Positions 6,120-44,939 of a DNA stretch of 64,000 bases are shown here, piece after piece; within the stretch, counting starts at the first letter, position 1, and each line of letters starts with the position of its first letter. The DNA is from Pelomonas sp. Root1237. Its GTDB lineage: Bacteria; Pseudomonadota; Gammaproteobacteria; Burkholderiales; Burkholderiaceae_C. A program made the translations under genes and the position numbers. Location: NCBI RefSeq assembly GCF_001425055.1, contig NZ_LMDK01000001.1:385845-449844 (forward strand). Direction: 5' to 3'. A model generated the notes under the pieces. It had not been told where the DNA came from. It saw nothing but the letters and a program-made list of their open reading frames with translations, and did no database searches.

Positions 6120-7349
<1,230 letters not shown>

Positions 7350-25523: not shown

Positions 25524-25625
25524 TCAACCCGTATCGGTTGCCCATGGTGCTGGGCGCCATCTGCAACCCACAAAGCCCGGGTATTGCGGGCCGAGCGCCG
25601 GGCCGCTCCCAAGGCGGCCCGCACT

Positions 25626-25677
25626 GGCGATGTGCTTGCGGCTCGATGCCGCAAGCATCGCCGTCCCCTCGGGGGAC
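25626..25677. repeat. Two adjacent GC-rich hairpins after the efflux operon
   Basis: The first hairpin spans 25626-25662. GGCGAT plus GCTTGCGGC pairs with GCCGCAAGC plus ATCGCC, a 15-pair stem with a two-base bulge and loop TCGAT. The second is GTCCCC (25663-25668) pairing with GGGGAC (25672-25677). No T-run follows, so they are not classical terminators. They could be Rho-linked 3' ends or remnants of a dispersed repeat. The surrounding 209-base gap (25524-25732) holds no gene that I can support. Confidence 0.6.
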
Positions 25678-25732
25678 CGACCAGACTCGCTCGCGTTCAG
25701 CGACGCGAGGATGGGCGAGGGGCAGGTCCGCT

Positions 25733-37522: not shown

Positions 37523-38887
37523 TCAGGCCGGGTTGCTGGCCGGCGTGCCGGGCACGGCTTCCAGCTCGCCCGATGCACGCGCCTTGCGGCCGTAGAAGAT
37601 CTCGAACAGCGGCGTGGCCATCATGGTCGTCACCACCGCCATCAGCACCAGCATCGAGAACAGGGCCGGGCCGATGATGCCCTTCTGCAGGCCGATGTTG
37701 ATGATGATGAGCTCCATCAGGCCGCGCGAGTTCATCAGCGCGCCGATGCCCAAAGCGGTGCGGTTGTCTTCACCGGCCATGCGGGCCGCCAGGTAGCAGG
37801 CGCCGAACTTGGCCAGCACCGAGGCGACCAGCACACCGGCGGCGATCAGCAGCAGCTGCACCGAATTGATCATGTCCAGGCGCGTGTTCAGGCCTGAGTA
37901 GGTGAAGAACATCGGCAGCAACAGGATCACCGTGAGCGGCTCGACCTTCTTCTTCAGCTCGGCAGCGAACAGGCCGCGCGGCATGACGGCGCCCAGGATG
38001 AAGCCGCCGAAGATGGCATGGATGCCGACGGCGTCCATGATGAAGGCCGACGTGCAGAAGCAAATCAGCGTGATGCCCAGCACCGTGTTGCTCATGTGGC
38101 CATCACGCTCGACCATGCGGCCCAGCGGGGCCAGCAGCTTCTTGCCGAACAGCATGACGAAGGCCGCCCACAGCACGCCGCCGCCGATGGCCAGCACGGC
38201 CACGCCGGGGCCCGCACCAAAGGCCGCCAGCACCAGGGCCAGCACGCACCAGGAGGCGGCGTCGTCGAAGGCGCCGGCCGTCAGCGTCAGGGTGCCCAGC
38301 GAGGTGTTGGCCAGGCCCTGCTCGTTGATGATGCGGGCCAGCATCGGGAAGGCCGTCAGCGCGATGCAGGCGCCCATGAACAGGGTCGCATTCGCCGTGG
38401 AGATGCCTTCGGCAAACAGCCCGGGAACCTGGAGCAGCAGCGGTGTGATCAGGAAGGCGATGAAGAAGGGCGCCGCGATGCCGGCGAAGGACACGCCCAT
38501 CGCGCTCTTCGCCTTGGTCGCGAAGTGGTCCAGTCGCAGCGTCGTGCCGACCAGGAACATGTACAGCCCCACACCCAGCTGGGCACCGGAGTACAGCACG
38601 CTGCGCATCTCCTTCGGGAAGATGGCGGACTGCACGTCGGGGAAGAACAGGCCCAGCAGCGACGGGCCGAGGATGACGCCCGCGATCATTTCTCCAACCA
38701 CCTGGGGCTGGCCCAGGAATTTGCGGCCGGCCCAGCCAACCACGCGGCACGCCAGCATGATCAGCCCGAGCTGCAGGAAGAAGTGGACGCTGAAATCGCC
38801 CGGCGCGTAGGTCTTGGCGGCCGCGGCCGCAGCGGGACCATGCTTGGCGAACACGTCGCCCATGATGGCAAGAAGGTCGAATTCCAT
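37523..38887 (-). CDS. Cation:proton antiporter, CPA2 family
   Basis: 454 residues, about 12 membrane helices. Family segments: LGQPQVVGEMIAGVILGPSL, GAQLGVGLYMFLVGTTLRLD, ALTAFPMLARIINEQGL, AGAFDDAASWCVLAL (transport Asp), GIHAIFGGFILGAVMPR, and GALMNSRGLMELIIINIGLQ. It exchanges Na+ or K+ for protons across the inner membrane. There is no C-terminal RCK domain. ATG 38887 with AGGAA upstream was chosen; the frame continues 56 codons further with unrelated sequence. Confidence 0.94.
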   Translation of the reverse strand: MEFDLLAIMGDVFAKHGPAAAAAAKTYAPGDFSVHFFLQLGLIMLACRVVGWAGRKFLGQPQVVGEMIAGVILGPSLLGLFFPDVQSAIFPKEMRSVLYSGAQLGVGLYMFLVGTTLRLDHFATKAKSAMGVSFAGIAAPFFIAFLITPLLLQVPGLFAEGISTANATLFMGACIALTAFPMLARIINEQGLANTSLGTLTLTAGAFDDAASWCVLALVLAAFGAGPGVAVLAIGGGVLWAAFVMLFGKKLLAPLGRMVERDGHMSNTVLGITLICFCTSAFIMDAVGIHAIFGGFILGAVMPRGLFAAELKKKVEPLTVILLLPMFFTYSGLNTRLDMINSVQLLLIAAGVLVASVLAKFGACYLAARMAGEDNRTALGIGALMNSRGLMELIIINIGLQKGIIGPALFSMLVLMAVVTTMMATPLFEIFYGRKARASGELEAVPGTPASNPA

Positions 38888-39038
38888 GGCTGTTCCTGTA
38901 GATTTTTTGCCGTTGCCACGCACCGCCGCGCGGTTTTGTACAACGTTGTCTGCCTCTTTTGGTGAAAGCGCTCTCACCACGTGGAACACTTTGCCAGCCG
39001 GGTTTTCAATGTCCATTGGGTCGAACAGATCCGGGCCT

Positions 39039-39084
39039 ATGTACCTACATCCCAATTGCGCGATTGCAGGTAGGTAGGTACATT
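39039..39084 (+). promoter_or_regulatory. Promoter with palindromic operator of the Phd/VapC-halogenase operon
   Basis: Perfect inverted repeat ATGTACCTAC (39039-39048) and GTAGGTACAT (39074-39083), centred on an imperfect AATTGCGCGATT. A -35-like TTGCGC (39056-39061) and a -10-like TACATT (39079-39084) are 17 bases apart, so the operator covers the promoter. This fits autoregulation by the antitoxin. The predicted transcription start falls only a few bases before the ATG at 39094. Confidence 0.7.
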
Positions 39085-39093
39085 GGCGAGGCC

Positions 39094-39345
39094 ATGAAAC
39101 TGCTCACCAGCCGCGATTTCAACCGTGACGTCAGCCTCGCCAAGCGGGCGGCGCAGGTCGAGCCGGTCGTCATCACCGACCGCGGCCAGCCCACTCATGT
39201 GCTGATGAGCATTGCCGAGTACCGCCGCCTGACCGGCGAGGGCGAGAGCATCCTGGAGCTGCTGGCCATGCCCGAGGTCGTGACGATCGATGCGGCCGAC
39301 GCCGCGGCCGATGGCGCCTGGGATCACCGCGAAAACCTCCCCTGA
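39094..39345 (+). CDS. Phd/YefM-family antitoxin
   Basis: 83 residues. Start KLLTSRDFNRDVSLAKRAAQ and PVVITDRGQPTHVLMSIAEY are the typical Phd/YefM DNA-binding and dimer core. The C-terminus (LELLAMPEVVTIDAADAAAD) would wrap the toxin. Seven bases separate it from the toxin gene. It probably represses its own promoter through the palindrome just upstream. Confidence 0.93.
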   Translation: MKLLTSRDFNRDVSLAKRAAQVEPVVITDRGQPTHVLMSIAEYRRLTGEGESILELLAMPEVVTIDAADAAADGAWDHRENLP

Positions 39346-39352
39346 GGGCGCC

Positions 39353-39850
39353 ATGTTCCTGCTCGACACCAGCATCGTTCTCGAACTGCGCAAGGCCAAG
39401 GCCGGCCAGTCCGACGCCGGCCTGGCCGCCTGGGCCGCCGGCCTGCCGCGCCAAAAACTCTTCATCTCGGCGCTGAACCTGCTGGAGATCGAGAACGCCG
39501 CCGCCCGCCTGGGCCGCAAGGACCGCGCCGCCGGCCTCGTCGTGCGCGACTGGATCGATAGCCGCGTCATTCCCGCCTTCGAAGGCCGCGTGCTGCCGGT
39601 GGACGCGGCCGTCGTGCGCCGCCGGGCCCAGCTGCCCTATGCCAATACCCGCGACGGCCTGCTCGCCGCGACGGCGCTGGAACATGGCCTCACCTTCGTC
39701 ACCCACCGCGTCTCGGCATTCCGCGTCGGGCGCGTGAAGCTGCTCAACCCCTCCGGCTACGTCGCCCAGCCCAGTGACGAGGACGAGGACTGGAGCCATG
39801 GCGCCCAGACCGGCCAGCAGTGGCTGAAGAACCTCTATACGAGAGCATGA
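39353..39850 (+). CDS. VapC-type PIN-domain ribonuclease toxin
   Basis: 165 residues. PIN-domain acidic residues are present: Asp5 in MFLLDTSIVLEL, Glu in ISALNLLEIENAA, Asp in YANTRDGLLAATALEHGL. VapC toxins cleave tRNA or rRNA when released from antitoxin. About 25 residues beyond the core form an acidic tail (SDEDEDWSHGAQTGQQWLKN). Its stop overlaps the halogenase start (ATGA at 39847), so toxin and halogenase are translationally coupled. Confidence 0.92.
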   Translation: MFLLDTSIVLELRKAKAGQSDAGLAAWAAGLPRQKLFISALNLLEIENAAARLGRKDRAAGLVVRDWIDSRVIPAFEGRVLPVDAAVVRRRAQLPYANTRDGLLAATALEHGLTFVTHRVSAFRVGRVKLLNPSGYVAQPSDEDEDWSHGAQTGQQWLKNLYTRA

Positions 39851-41376
39851 ACAAGCGACGCATTCTCATCGTCGGCGGCGGCACGGCCGGCTGGCTGACC
39901 GCCGCCTACCTGGCCAAGGCCCTCAAGCTGTCCGAGCGCAGCCACCTGGAGGTGACCGTGCTGGAGTCGCCCGACATCAGCAGCGTCGGCGTCGGCGAAG
40001 GCACCTTCCCCACCATCCGCAGCACGCTCCAATTCCTCGGCATCGACGAGGCGCGCTTCATCCGCGAGACCTCGGCCACGCTCAAGCAGGGCATCCGCTT
40101 CGTCGACTGGGCGCGCACGCCCACCGCGGGCCAGCATCAGCAGTTCTTCCATCCCTTCGAAGCGCCCTTCTACACGGAGGACCTCAACCTGGTGCCCTAC
40201 TGGCTGCTGCAGGACGAGGCCGGGCGCATGCCCTTCGCCGAGGCCATGACGCTGCAGGTGCGCGTCGCCGAAGCCCACCGCGCGCCCAAGCGGGCCGGCG
40301 AAGCGCCTTATGCCGCGCCGCTGAACTACGCCTACCACTTCGACGCGCTCAAGCTCGCCAAGCTGCTGGCCGCGCGCGCCCGTGAGCTCGGCGTGCGCCA
40401 CGTCGAAGGCACGGTGACTGACGTCGTTCTCGATGCGACGGGCGCCATCGCCCATCTCGACACCGCCCAGCTGGGCCGTTTCGAGGCCGAGCTTTATATC
40501 GACTGCACGGGCTTTCGCGCCGAGCTCATCGGCCGGGCGATGGGTTCGAACTTCAAGTCCGTGCGCCACCAGCTCTTCGTCGACCGCGCCCTGGCCTGCA
40601 AGGTGCCGCTGGATGCCAATGCGGTCATGGAAAGCTCCACCATCGCTACCGCCCACGAGGCGGGCTGGTTGTGGGAGATCGGCCTGAACGGCGCGCGCGG
40701 CATCGGCTGCGTCTATTCCAGCGACCATCTCAGCGACGACCGTGCCGCCGACATCCTGCGCGGCTACTGCGGCGCGGGCAACGAAGACCTGGCAATGCGC
40801 AGCATCCCCTTCACGCCCGGCTACCGCGAGCAGCAGTGGGTGAAGAACTGCGTCGCCGTCGGCCTGTCGGCCGGCTTCCTGGAGCCGCTGGAGGCCACCG
40901 GCCTCGTCCTCATCGAGGCGGCCGTCGGCATGATTGCCGAGATGCTGCCGCACAGCGGCCCCATGCACGCACCGGCGCGGCGCTTCAACGAGCTGATGAC
41001 GGCGCGCTTCGAGAACATCATCAACTTCCTGAAGCTGCACTACTGCCTGAGCCAGCGGCAGGAGCCCTTCTGGCGCGACAACGCCGCGCCGGCCACCATC
41101 CCGGATCGACTGGCCGGCTTGCTGGAGGAGTGGCAGCTGCGCCCGCCGGGCCGTTTCGACTTCGTGCTCGACACCGAAACCTTCGCCTTCTTCAACTACC
41201 AGTACATCCTCTACGGCATGGGCTTCGCCACCGACCTCAGCGCCGGCCGCAGCGATTTCCCGCAGATGGCGGACGCCGACAAGCTGTTCGCCAAGATCCA
41301 GCGTTTTGCCGACCGCGCCATCGCCGATCTGCCCAGCCACCGGGCGCTGATCCAGCAGATCAACGCGGGGCGCTGA
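39847..41376 (+). CDS. Flavin-dependent tryptophan-halogenase-family protein
   Basis: 509 residues. FAD-binding GGGTAGWLTAAYLA at the N-terminus; GVGEGTFPTIRSTLQFLGID is the usual second block. Catalytic Lys80 (TLKQGIRFVDW) aligns with PrnA Lys79, and the active-site Glu is present in FLEPLEATG. The diagnostic WxWxIP motif is altered to WLWEIG (residues 274-279, Pro to Gly). The family chlorinates or brominates tryptophan or other aromatic compounds using FADH2 from a separate reductase; none is adjacent. The substrate is unknown. The last 17 bases overlap the convergent arsN1-like gene. Confidence 0.92.
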   Translation: MNKRRILIVGGGTAGWLTAAYLAKALKLSERSHLEVTVLESPDISSVGVGEGTFPTIRSTLQFLGIDEARFIRETSATLKQGIRFVDWARTPTAGQHQQFFHPFEAPFYTEDLNLVPYWLLQDEAGRMPFAEAMTLQVRVAEAHRAPKRAGEAPYAAPLNYAYHFDALKLAKLLAARARELGVRHVEGTVTDVVLDATGAIAHLDTAQLGRFEAELYIDCTGFRAELIGRAMGSNFKSVRHQLFVDRALACKVPLDANAVMESSTIATAHEAGWLWEIGLNGARGIGCVYSSDHLSDDRAADILRGYCGAGNEDLAMRSIPFTPGYREQQWVKNCVAVGLSAGFLEPLEATGLVLIEAAVGMIAEMLPHSGPMHAPARRFNELMTARFENIINFLKLHYCLSQRQEPFWRDNAAPATIPDRLAGLLEEWQLRPPGRFDFVLDTETFAFFNYQYILYGMGFATDLSAGRSDFPQMADADKLFAKIQRFADRAIADLPSHRALIQQINAGR

Positions 41377-41896
41377 AGGCCTGGGGCGGCGAGGGTGTGT
41401 CCAGGGGCCTGAGCGCCTTCTGCCACCAGCCCACGTCGCGCCACTCGCCGTTCTTGAAGCCGACGTTGCGATACACGCCCAGGGCTTCGAAACCCACTGC
41501 CTCGTGCAGGCCGACGCTGCCCGCATTGGGCAAGGCGATGCCGGCAAAAGCCTGGAAGTAGCCGAGCTCGGCCAGCAGCGGCAGCAGCCGCTCGTACAGC
41601 GCCCGGCCGACGCCCTGGCCGCGCATGCCCTCGCGCACATAGACCGTCGTGTCCACCGACCACTGGTAGGCCGCCCGTTCGCGGTGCTTGCTGGCATAGG
41701 CATAGCCGCAGATGGCGCCGTCTGCATCCTCAGCCACCAGCCAGGGCAGGCTGGCCAGCGTCTTCTCGATGCGGCTGCGCATCTCCTGCGCGTCCGGCGG
41801 CTCCGTCTCAAAGGAGATGCTGGTGTGGGCCACGATGGGCGCATAGATGGCTGCGACGGCGGCGCCGTCCTCGGGGGTGGCGGTGCGGATCTTCAA
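41360..41896 (-). CDS. arsN1: GNAT acetyltransferase of the PAT/ArsN1 type
   Basis: 178 residues. It matches phosphinothricin-type N-acetyltransferases: KIRTATPEDGAAVAAIYAPI, ISFETEPPD, WLVAEDADGAICGYAY, the acetyl-CoA loop VREGMRGQGVGRALYERL, and VGFKNGEWRDVGWWQKAL. In arsenic operons this subfamily is ArsN1, which acetylates the natural antibiotic arsinothricin; the ArsN1 name rests on that context. TTG 41896 is used: GGAGGA lies six bases upstream and TTGA overlaps the MFS stop. Outside this setting it could be an amino-acid acetyltransferase such as MnaT. Confidence 0.82.
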   Translation of the reverse strand: MKIRTATPEDGAAVAAIYAPIVAHTSISFETEPPDAQEMRSRIEKTLASLPWLVAEDADGAICGYAYASKHRERAAYQWSVDTTVYVREGMRGQGVGRALYERLLPLLAELGYFQAFAGIALPNAGSVGLHEAVGFEALGVYRNVGFKNGEWRDVGWWQKALRPLDTPSPPQAFSAPR

Positions 41897-43079: not shown

Positions 43080-44939
43080 TCAGCCGCAGCAGCGCGAGGC
43101 GCGCTCCGGCGCCGGCTTGGGGGCGCAGCTGCTCGGGCCGCAGCCCGACTTGGGCGCGGCCACGGCCACCACCGCTGCCGGGCCGCAGCAGCCGGACGCT
43201 TCGCCTTCGACCGCCAGGTTGACCGAGCAGACACCCGTCTCCGGCAGCTCCAGTTCGACCCGGTCCGCCGCCGTCAGGTCGCCCGCGATAGCGGCGACGA
43301 CCGAGCGCGCCTGCTCGAAGCCCGTCGCCATCAGGAAGGTCGGTGCGCGGCCATAGCTCTTCACGCCCACGGTGTAGAAGCCCGGCTCCGGGTGGGCCAG
43401 CTCGCGGTGGCCATGCGGGCGCACCGTGCCGCAGCTGTGCAGGTTCGGGTCGATCAGCGGCCCCAGCGCTTCGGTGGATTCCAGCCACGGGTCGAGCTTG
43501 ACGCGCAGCTCGCTGGCCAGCGACAGGTCGGGGCGCTGGCCGGTCGCACAGATGATTTCGTCGACACCGTCAACGACGACGGGCTGCTGTTTCGGGTCCA
43601 AACCGCTGAGGCGCAGCTGCCCGCCCACGCGCTCGATCCGCGTGATGCGCAGGCCAGCGAAGAACTCCAGTGCACCGCCATCGTGCAGCCGGCGCAGCGA
43701 CGTGCCCAGCGCGCCGCGGGCAGGCAAGGCGTCCGCGTCGCCACCGCCGAAGACGCGCTGCAGCGTCGGCGTGCGCACGGCCCAGGCCAGGCGCGTGCCG
43801 GGCGACTGCCTGGCCAGTTCGGCCAGCGCCAGCAGCGCATTCGCGGCCGAGTGGCCGGCGCCGACGACCAGGGTGCGCCGCCCCTCGTAGCGCGCCCTCT
43901 GCGCGCCCGTCACGTCGGGAATGCCGTAGAAGATCTGCGCCCCTGCCTCGGTCTCGCCGATGGCGTGCAGGCCGTTGGCGCCGACCGGATTGGGCTGGTT
44001 CCAGGTGCCGGTTGCGTCGATGACGGCGCGGGCGCGCAGCTCGTGCACTTCGCCGCCTTGCTCGTAGCGGATCAGGAAGGCAGCCTGGTCGCGCCCGGCG
44101 CTCTTGACCTTGTCGAAACCCTCGCGGCTGACGGCCACGACGCGTGCGCCCAGCTTCAACGCGCCGGCCACCTGCGGCAGGGCCGCAAACGGCTTGAGCA
44201 CGCGCTCGACCACCTCGCCGGCCTTGGGCAGCTCGGCCGCCGGCGGCGCTGTCCAGCCAGTGGGCAACAGCAGGCGGGCCATCGCGGGGTCGACGTCGAA
44301 CTGCCACGGCGAGAACAGCTGCACATGGCCGTAGTCGACGAGATTGGCGCCCACCGTCGCGCCGGCCTCCAGCGCGACAAACGGCAAGCCGCGCTCGATG
44401 AGCTGGGCGACCGCCGCCAGCCCGACCGGCCCGGCGCCAAGCACCGCGACCGGCAGCGGGCCATCGGCGACCGGCGCTTCACGCAGCACCAGCGTCATCA
44501 GTGCCGCACAGGCCGGGCAGGCGCCCTGGAACTCGGCCGAGGCTTTCAGCGCCTGGGGCGCCTCCTCGATCTTGATGCGCTTGAAGCCGTATTGCGCGAA
44601 GTACTCCGGCGCCGTGACGGTCAGCAGATAGAGGGCCGCGATGTCGCGCGAGCGGGCTTCCTGCAGCAGCCGCTCGACGAGCAGGCGCCCGATGCCCTGC
44701 TTGTGCAGGCCCGGCGCAATGGCCACCGAGCGCAGCAGCGCGATGGTTCCGGCGACATGGCCGTAGACCTCGGCGCCGGCGCAGCCAACGACCTCGCCAT
44801 TGCTGATGGCAAGCAGATAGGTGGGCAGGTGCGCCTGCGCGCCCTCGGTGGGCAACTTGTTCGCCAGCAGCAGGGCTTCGATGGCGGGCCAGTCGGCGGC
44901 GCCGGCCTGGCGCAGGGAGGGGGTGTCGTTCAACAGCAT
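43080..44939 (-). CDS. ArsN2 GNAT domain fused to a flavin monooxygenase-like domain with Cys-rich tail
   Basis: 619 residues. Residues 1-155: ArsN2-type GNAT (SVAIAPGLHKQGIGRLLVER, TAPEYFAQYGFKRI, CPAC at 141-144). Residues 163-565: FAD/NAD(P) oxidoreductase, with GAGPVG at 168-173, a second dinucleotide site in VVGAGHSAANALLALAE, and CATGQRPD. Residues 569-619: a tail with seven Cys (571, 584, 585, 600, 605, 617, 618), suited to thiol binding of As(III). Its start overlaps the MarR stop by ten bases. The reaction is unknown: oxidation of As(III) or of an organoarsenical is plausible. Confidence 0.85.
   Translation of the reverse strand: MLLNDTPSLRQAGAADWPAIEALLLANKLPTEGAQAHLPTYLLAISNGEVVGCAGAEVYGHVAGTIALLRSVAIAPGLHKQGIGRLLVERLLQEARSRDIAALYLLTVTAPEYFAQYGFKRIKIEEAPQALKASAEFQGACPACAALMTLVLREAPVADGPLPVAVLGAGPVGLAAVAQLIERGLPFVALEAGATVGANLVDYGHVQLFSPWQFDVDPAMARLLLPTGWTAPPAAELPKAGEVVERVLKPFAALPQVAGALKLGARVVAVSREGFDKVKSAGRDQAAFLIRYEQGGEVHELRARAVIDATGTWNQPNPVGANGLHAIGETEAGAQIFYGIPDVTGAQRARYEGRRTLVVGAGHSAANALLALAELARQSPGTRLAWAVRTPTLQRVFGGGDADALPARGALGTSLRRLHDGGALEFFAGLRITRIERVGGQLRLSGLDPKQQPVVVDGVDEIICATGQRPDLSLASELRVKLDPWLESTEALGPLIDPNLHSCGTVRPHGHRELAHPEPGFYTVGVKSYGRAPTFLMATGFEQARSVVAAIAGDLTAADRVELELPETGVCSVNLAVEGEASGCCGPAAVVAVAAPKSGCGPSSCAPKPAPERASRCCG

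Follow-up and report, generated by a model that had tools for sequence, protein, structure and literature searches.

What is a toxin-antitoxin (TA) gene pair doing directly in front of a flavin-dependent halogenase gene? This question is raised by a 64,000-nt stretch of Pelomonas sp. Root1237 (contig NZ_LMDK01000001.1, positions 385,845 to 449,844; hereafter the window). According to the sequence and its translations, a phd antitoxin gene, a FitB/VapC-like PIN gene and a flavin halogenase gene follow one another there on the plus strand behind one putative promoter. It has long been held that chromosomal TA pairs are at times domesticated; to our knowledge, clean cases are few. The sequences of this locus and its relatives indicate that a domesticated Phd-PIN pair most likely controls the halogenase operon rather than serving as an addiction guard, and we give its domestication as a control part of that operon about an even chance. 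The altered active site, the tail, the fixed partner genes and the kept operator discussed below are visible in 241 aligned sequences and are directly testable.

The phd gene (39094-39345, +; ATG at 39094, TGA at 39343-39345) encodes an 83-aa Phd/YefM-type antitoxin (PF02604 PhdYeFM_antitox, E 1.2e-9; TIGR01552). It is followed by the gene for a 165-aa VapC/FitB-like PIN protein (39353-39850, +; ATG at 39353, TGA at 39848-39850; Pfam PIN), and the third gene encodes a 509-aa flavin-dependent halogenase of the tryptophan-halogenase family (39847-41376, +; ATG at 39847-39849). The initial annotation had described a three-gene operon under one palindromic operator; the same-strand trio with its own promoter and operator stands, and the full palindrome proved not to be universal. 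To that account we add a divergent cation:proton antiporter gene (37523-38887, −; 454 aa; PF00999 Na_H_Exchanger, E 3e-49, residues 49-425), whose start lies 206 bp from phd.

The same arrangement was sought in 20 Roseateles/Pelomonas genomes, the source genome included. The halogenase is present in 18 of them (the window's own plus 17 orthologues at 77-94% identity), and the long PIN protein occurs in exactly these 18. In all 18 carriers the halogenase gene is preceded by phd and the PIN gene, with the antiporter beyond them; the Phd/YefM gene is always directly 5' of the PIN gene at short spacing, and the Phd proteins of the 17 other loci are 76-95% identical to that of the window. The remaining two genomes, in which phd alone was not searched for, are without this halogenase and PIN protein: G011 (95% complete) has the antiporter, around which no module gene lies within 1.5 kb, and G018 (91% complete) lacks any antiporter match and has just a 51% identical halogenase. 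A second PIN gene of the source genome, used as a control, was found at >80% identity in 5 of the 20 genomes, its own included.

In a family sample of 399 genomes, the best three halogenase candidates and the best nine PIN candidates per genome were scored. Twelve genomes hold a halogenase at ≥73% and a PIN protein at ≥78% identity, the same 12 for both; the coordinates place the two genes side by side in 11 of these, and in the twelfth a contig end cuts the halogenase gene, whose start follows the PIN gene. Ten further halogenase matches in the family (52-55%) come from six genomes without such a PIN protein and four with a PIN protein at the module only. We also scanned named genomes with patterns taken from the PIN protein only, which gave 26 loci (17 of the genus already counted, 5 of the family and 4 new). 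All 26 have phd before and a halogenase gene after the PIN gene, and 25 have the antiporter. The initial annotation had considered that no related genome might share the arrangement; the search of halogenase homologues for an upstream phd-PIN pair gave the opposite outcome. An order-level PIN profile search of 399 genomes returned only the source genome at 1e-40 and says little, as this sample was an even draw over 159 genera in which the known carriers were evidently not drawn. Judged from these genomes, the link between the Phd-PIN pair and the halogenase is non-random.

The module is present in another class, the Alphaproteobacteria, beside the Burkholderiales. When plasmids were searched with the PIN protein, 513 records matched; two of the ten best extend through the tail, and both are from Sphingomonas. 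The S. parapaucimobilis plasmid (L091) has the order antiporter (divergent), phd, PIN gene, halogenase gene, and the plasmid of Sphingomonas sp. R1 (L092) has the same antiporter, phd and PIN arrangement with the halogenase gene on the antiporter's other side. Identities to the window proteins in L091/L092 are 75/78% for the antiporter, 57.6/63.6% for the halogenase and 51/49% for the PIN protein, while Phd is 60% identical over 60 residues in L091 and 67% over 66 residues in L092. These halogenase values compare with 51-54% for nine relatives linked to TonB receptors. The R1 halogenase, used as a query against plasmids, found four records, namely L091, L092 and two at 51-52%; the one of the latter that was examined adjoins a TonB receptor gene. 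An exact GTACCTAC lies no more than 60 nt from phd in both Sphingomonas plasmids (chance 0.0016 and 0.0017 by shuffling). The shared travel of altered PIN protein, halogenase and antiporter in two distant groups suggests a self-poisoning system turned control device. In the R1 record, a glutaredoxin gene (6542-6790) stands directly 3' of the tailed PIN gene, and a redox link is possible.

The PIN protein itself is unusual. We compared 241 tailed PIN relatives, which are the best matches to tailed queries, with 27 short PIN proteins. The asparagine of the DTN motif (N7) is found in 0/241 tailed vs 27/27 short proteins, and the fourth active-site acid (position 119 or 122) in 7/241 vs 26/27; the tailed group does not have the canonical PIN-toxin active site (DTN plus four acids). 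In the window protein, the core (residues 1-136; 39353-39760, +) keeps D5, E45 and D101 and has N7 and the fourth acid replaced. The extra acidic tail that the initial annotation had noticed before the junction is indeed seen, at residues about 137-165. This conserved C-terminal tail (residues 137-165; 39761-39847, +) carries the motif DW...WLKNLYxR, and a motif of this type, in its general form DW...W(L/F)(K/R)N(L/I)(F/Y)xR, is present in 239/241 tailed and 0/27 short PIN proteins. Median omega is 0.16 for the PIN core, 0.23 for the whole tail, 0.15 for tail residues 144-165, 0.26 for phd and 0.30 for the halogenase gene.

An AlphaFold model of the PIN protein, built with 86 diverse alignment rows, has the FitB fold with a mean pLDDT (predicted local distance difference test) of 80.9; the predicted fold is closest to FitB and is also similar to RohQ (9c5w). 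The tail is disordered in this model (pLDDT <50) though conserved, so it probably folds on a partner, be it Phd, the halogenase or another protein. Having lost N7 and the fourth acid and gained a tail while retaining three acids and a FitB-like fold, the PIN protein has probably ceased to act as a general RNA-cutting toxin, and a loss of toxicity is likely even though three acids remain. Since W-x-H occurs in both proteins of the source species, we considered a tail copied from the Phd C-terminus; this was rejected because the H is not kept across species.

The putative Phd operator (39039-39083) has half-sites GTACCTAC at 39041-39048 (+) and 39074-39081 (−) and was recognised by its palindrome, the rarity of the 8-mer and the match in Sphingomonas. 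The palindrome arms (39035-39053 and 39069-39087) were verified in the window sequence. The core 8-mer has two copies in the window, both at the putative operator, against an expected 0.06, and the upstream (left) half-site is exact in 14/18 genus loci and within one mismatch in 18/18. Between and over the half-sites lies a putative promoter, TTGCGC-17 nt-TACATT (39056-39084, +), ending 9 nt before the phd ATG and hence near-leaderless. In 18/18 genus loci, the layout TTG(N)3-17 nt-TAC(A/C/G)NT stops 8-10 nt short of the phd start, so a transcript with next to no leader may result. A strict consensus scan of 38880-41420 gave no promoter-like site, missing the putative phd promoter too, and one terminator-like site, on the minus strand. 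A promoter concealed within the 3' end of the PIN gene was rejected, as synonymous change does not drop there and the scan gave no match. Further upstream of phd, a conserved box seen by eye resembles a promoter for the antiporter on the opposite strand. The palindrome TGGTGAAAGCGCTCTCACCA (38960-38979), which we take to be LacI-operator-like, lies between the antiporter start and phd; its core is also found in L009 and, less well, in L011, L018 and L024, and this is the sole place in the window within two mismatches of it.

A control mechanism can be proposed from these features. Phd, alone or with the PIN protein, would bind the half-sites flanking and overlapping the promoter and repress phd, the PIN gene and the halogenase gene, and this repression may affect the divergent antiporter as well. 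Acting by its ratio to Phd on the operator, the PIN protein would be a corepressor or derepressor. Binding of a partner or a signal would shift this ratio and set the halogenase output, with the conserved tail as the presumed link between Phd:PIN control and the partner. Halogenase output would then respond to the antitoxin level. A wider proposal, which we hold tentatively and at somewhat less than even chance, is that antiporter, Phd, tailed PIN protein and halogenase form a new four-gene module of Beta- and Alphaproteobacteria, in which the former toxin may be a regulator or docking partner of the halogenase through its tail, tied to ion/pH homeostasis. If this is true, halogenation is run by a TA-derived switch. 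The module is also an entry to environmental flavin halogenases with obscure substrates and control.

Several points weigh against control by a domesticated pair. The three acids D5, E/D45 and D101 are kept in 235/241 tailed PIN proteins, and with them metal binding, possibly even cleavage, may have survived. In the Sphingomonas-type set, whose alphaproteobacterial label comes from the names given for some members, residue 119 is mostly N, Q or H, whereas it is R/K at the window locus. The exact right palindrome arm (inverted GTAGGTAC) is present in 8/18 genus loci. The halogenase gene of L092 lies outside the phd operon, beyond the antiporter, and is not preceded by GTACCTAC; direct control through the operon therefore fails in this plasmid. 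The antiporter occurs without the trio in G011 and in three plasmid records (57-70% identity), and the lack of module neighbours on these plasmids means that it is not bound to the trio. Lastly, the gene context of the Sphingomonas-type PIN proteins comes from two plasmid records, and TA turnover was controlled for with a single gene.

We weighed four other explanations. An ordinary active Phd-VapC pair, acting as an addiction guard of the locus or being a mere upstream neighbour of the halogenase gene, is unlikely. It would account for a Phd/YefM antitoxin paired at short spacing with a PIN fold closest to FitB, and for the three of four acids kept in 235/241. Against it stand the group-wide changes at N7 and the fourth acid and a place fixed in 18/20 genus genomes where the other PIN gene was found in 5/20; moreover, for the eight relatives found in viral contigs, the match covers residues 1/2-133 and stops short of the tail. 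The addiction guard of the initial annotation was not borne out, given the altered active site of the whole group and the trio beside the antiporter in 18/20 genomes vs 5/20 for the control, and for the same reasons addiction guarding and hitch-hiking were rejected as the main explanation.

A PIN protein that remains an endoribonuclease with changed specificity, cutting the operon mRNA or one target RNA and thus tuning the halogenase post-transcriptionally, is also improbable. D5, E45 and D101 are all kept in 120/121 proteins of the window PIN protein's clade, and the PIN core is more conserved than the halogenase, as the omega values indicate; both would suit such an enzyme. N7 is lost in 241/241 and the fourth acid in 234/241, and synonymous sites near the 3' end of the PIN gene are no more conserved than in the rest of the gene, so no conserved RNA target is visible there. 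By analogy with RohQ in azomycin synthesis, the PIN protein might instead be an enzyme or subunit acting with the halogenase on a small molecule, which we consider doubtful. RohQ resembles it in having a PIN-type fold within a biosynthetic operon, and the likeness here is by fold only. Least probable is neutral synteny, that is, neighbours by descent with no functional link: 17 of the 26 named loci do come from the one genus already counted, but the downstream gene order is not kept (the genes there are common to at most 7/25 loci), the unit recurs in another class with an antiporter 75-78% identical, halogenase and PIN protein are jointly absent from 2/20 genus genomes, and the same 12/399 family genomes hold both.

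For a domesticated Phd-PIN pair in control of the halogenase operon, ATGA coupling is ruled out as an essential feature. The initial annotation was correct in placing the PIN stop and the halogenase start in one common ATGA (39847-39850, +), and translational coupling is possible at the window itself; among relatives it is a local detail. Ten of the 18 genus loci have the overlap, 2 have a gap of 2-3 nt and 6 have a spacer of 135-162 nt, and among the 26 named loci 10 show the overlap, with one more having a 1-base overlap. A dispersed repeat of ~123 nt breaks the overlap in at least 4 of the 6 long-spacer loci, since copies of this repeat make up the spacers of G004, G005, G007 and G009; the spacer of G015 is not among the repeat matches listed, and G017 was outside this search. 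The repeat has at least 30-42 matches in each of six genus genomes, with up to 244 first-look candidates. It stands directly after the PIN stop, between the PIN gene and the halogenase gene, in L011, L017, L018 and L024, and copies occur elsewhere in the source genome, for example at about 25581-25683 of the window. An Rfam search of the repeat/spacer of L011, L017 and L024 gave no match. A specific regulatory RNA in the long spacer was ruled out, considering the dispersed repeat, the missing Rfam match and a fold z-score of −1.6.

The product of 39847-41376 is, by its sequence, a flavin-dependent tryptophan-type halogenase. The PF04820 domain covers residues 5-463 (E 1.2e-127), and the nearest solved relative is 2pyx. 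Flavin-dependent halogenases are marked by GxGxxG, a catalytic Lys and Glu, and WxWxIP. The GxGxxG flavin motif and the catalytic Lys and Glu patterns are present in 18/18 genus halogenases; WxWxI is also present in 18/18, and in the window protein it is followed by G in place of P. A tree of 25 halogenases included 11 from the module (9 Burkholderiales and 2 Sphingomonas), which form one group (support 100/99), and the nine relatives at 51-54% form another (99/99). Eleven halogenases unlinked to the module were found; the nine examined all adjoin a TonB-dependent receptor gene and none adjoins Phd/PIN relatives, the other two (G696 and G755) being outside this neighbourhood comparison. One of the nine, in family genome G655 (L103, 2756-5665), is a second halogenase-antiporter neighbourhood, with a TonB-linked halogenase gene followed on the same strand by a distant Na_H_Exchanger gene (28%). 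Searching the source genome with the halogenase gave 17 matches (E up to 0.001), among them fragments of a single gene, and at three of its paralogue loci (L002, L003 and L006) the halogenase gene adjoins TonB receptor genes. A convergent GNAT acetyltransferase gene (41360-41896) lies 3' of the window halogenase gene. Farther on, a long open reading frame (43080-44939, −) has an N-terminal GNAT domain and a weaker flavin-oxidoreductase match, and adjoins a MarR gene.

The locus can be compared with several known systems. In FitAB of Neisseria gonorrhoeae (PDB 2h1c, 2bsq), FitB has DTN and, at the TRD position, an acid; it lacks a tail, and no halogenase accompanies it. Its partner is FitA, described in PMC3920265 as a ribbon-helix-helix protein, whereas the partner here is Phd/YefM. 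The autoregulated YefM-YoeB and Phd-Doc operons share with our locus a Phd/YefM antitoxin and half-sites resembling TGTACA cores around the promoter; in contrast, the toxin here is a PIN protein with an altered active site, and the operon runs into a halogenase gene. YefM operators with TGTACA cores overlapping the promoter, and conditional cooperativity in related TA systems, are also described in PMC3920265. In its reviewer section, PMC2701414 notes that certain PIN toxins may be inactivated. PMC10724926 gives RohQ as a PIN-fold cyclodehydratase of azomycin synthesis, and PMC12713392 names the roh genes. In the open-licence literature, we found no description of a halogenase in a TA operon and nothing on a domesticated or catalytically inactive PIN protein in a TA context.

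Halogenases closest to ours outside the module, the TonB-receptor-linked proteobacterial enzymes, belong to the same Pfam family at 51-54% identity and adjoin a TonB receptor, not Phd/PIN. With respect to operons of more than two genes, the toxin is active in both mazEF-mazG and mazEF-sigB. These operons, from E. coli and S. aureus respectively, are given in PMC3920265 as cases of third genes co-transcribed with TA pairs. Third genes in TA operons are thus known, and for a halogenase with a tailed, altered PIN protein in such an operon we found no precedent in the open-licence literature. In the maz operons the third gene encodes an NTP pyrophosphohydrolase or belongs to a sigma-factor operon, whereas here it encodes a flavin halogenase and follows an altered PIN protein with a tail.
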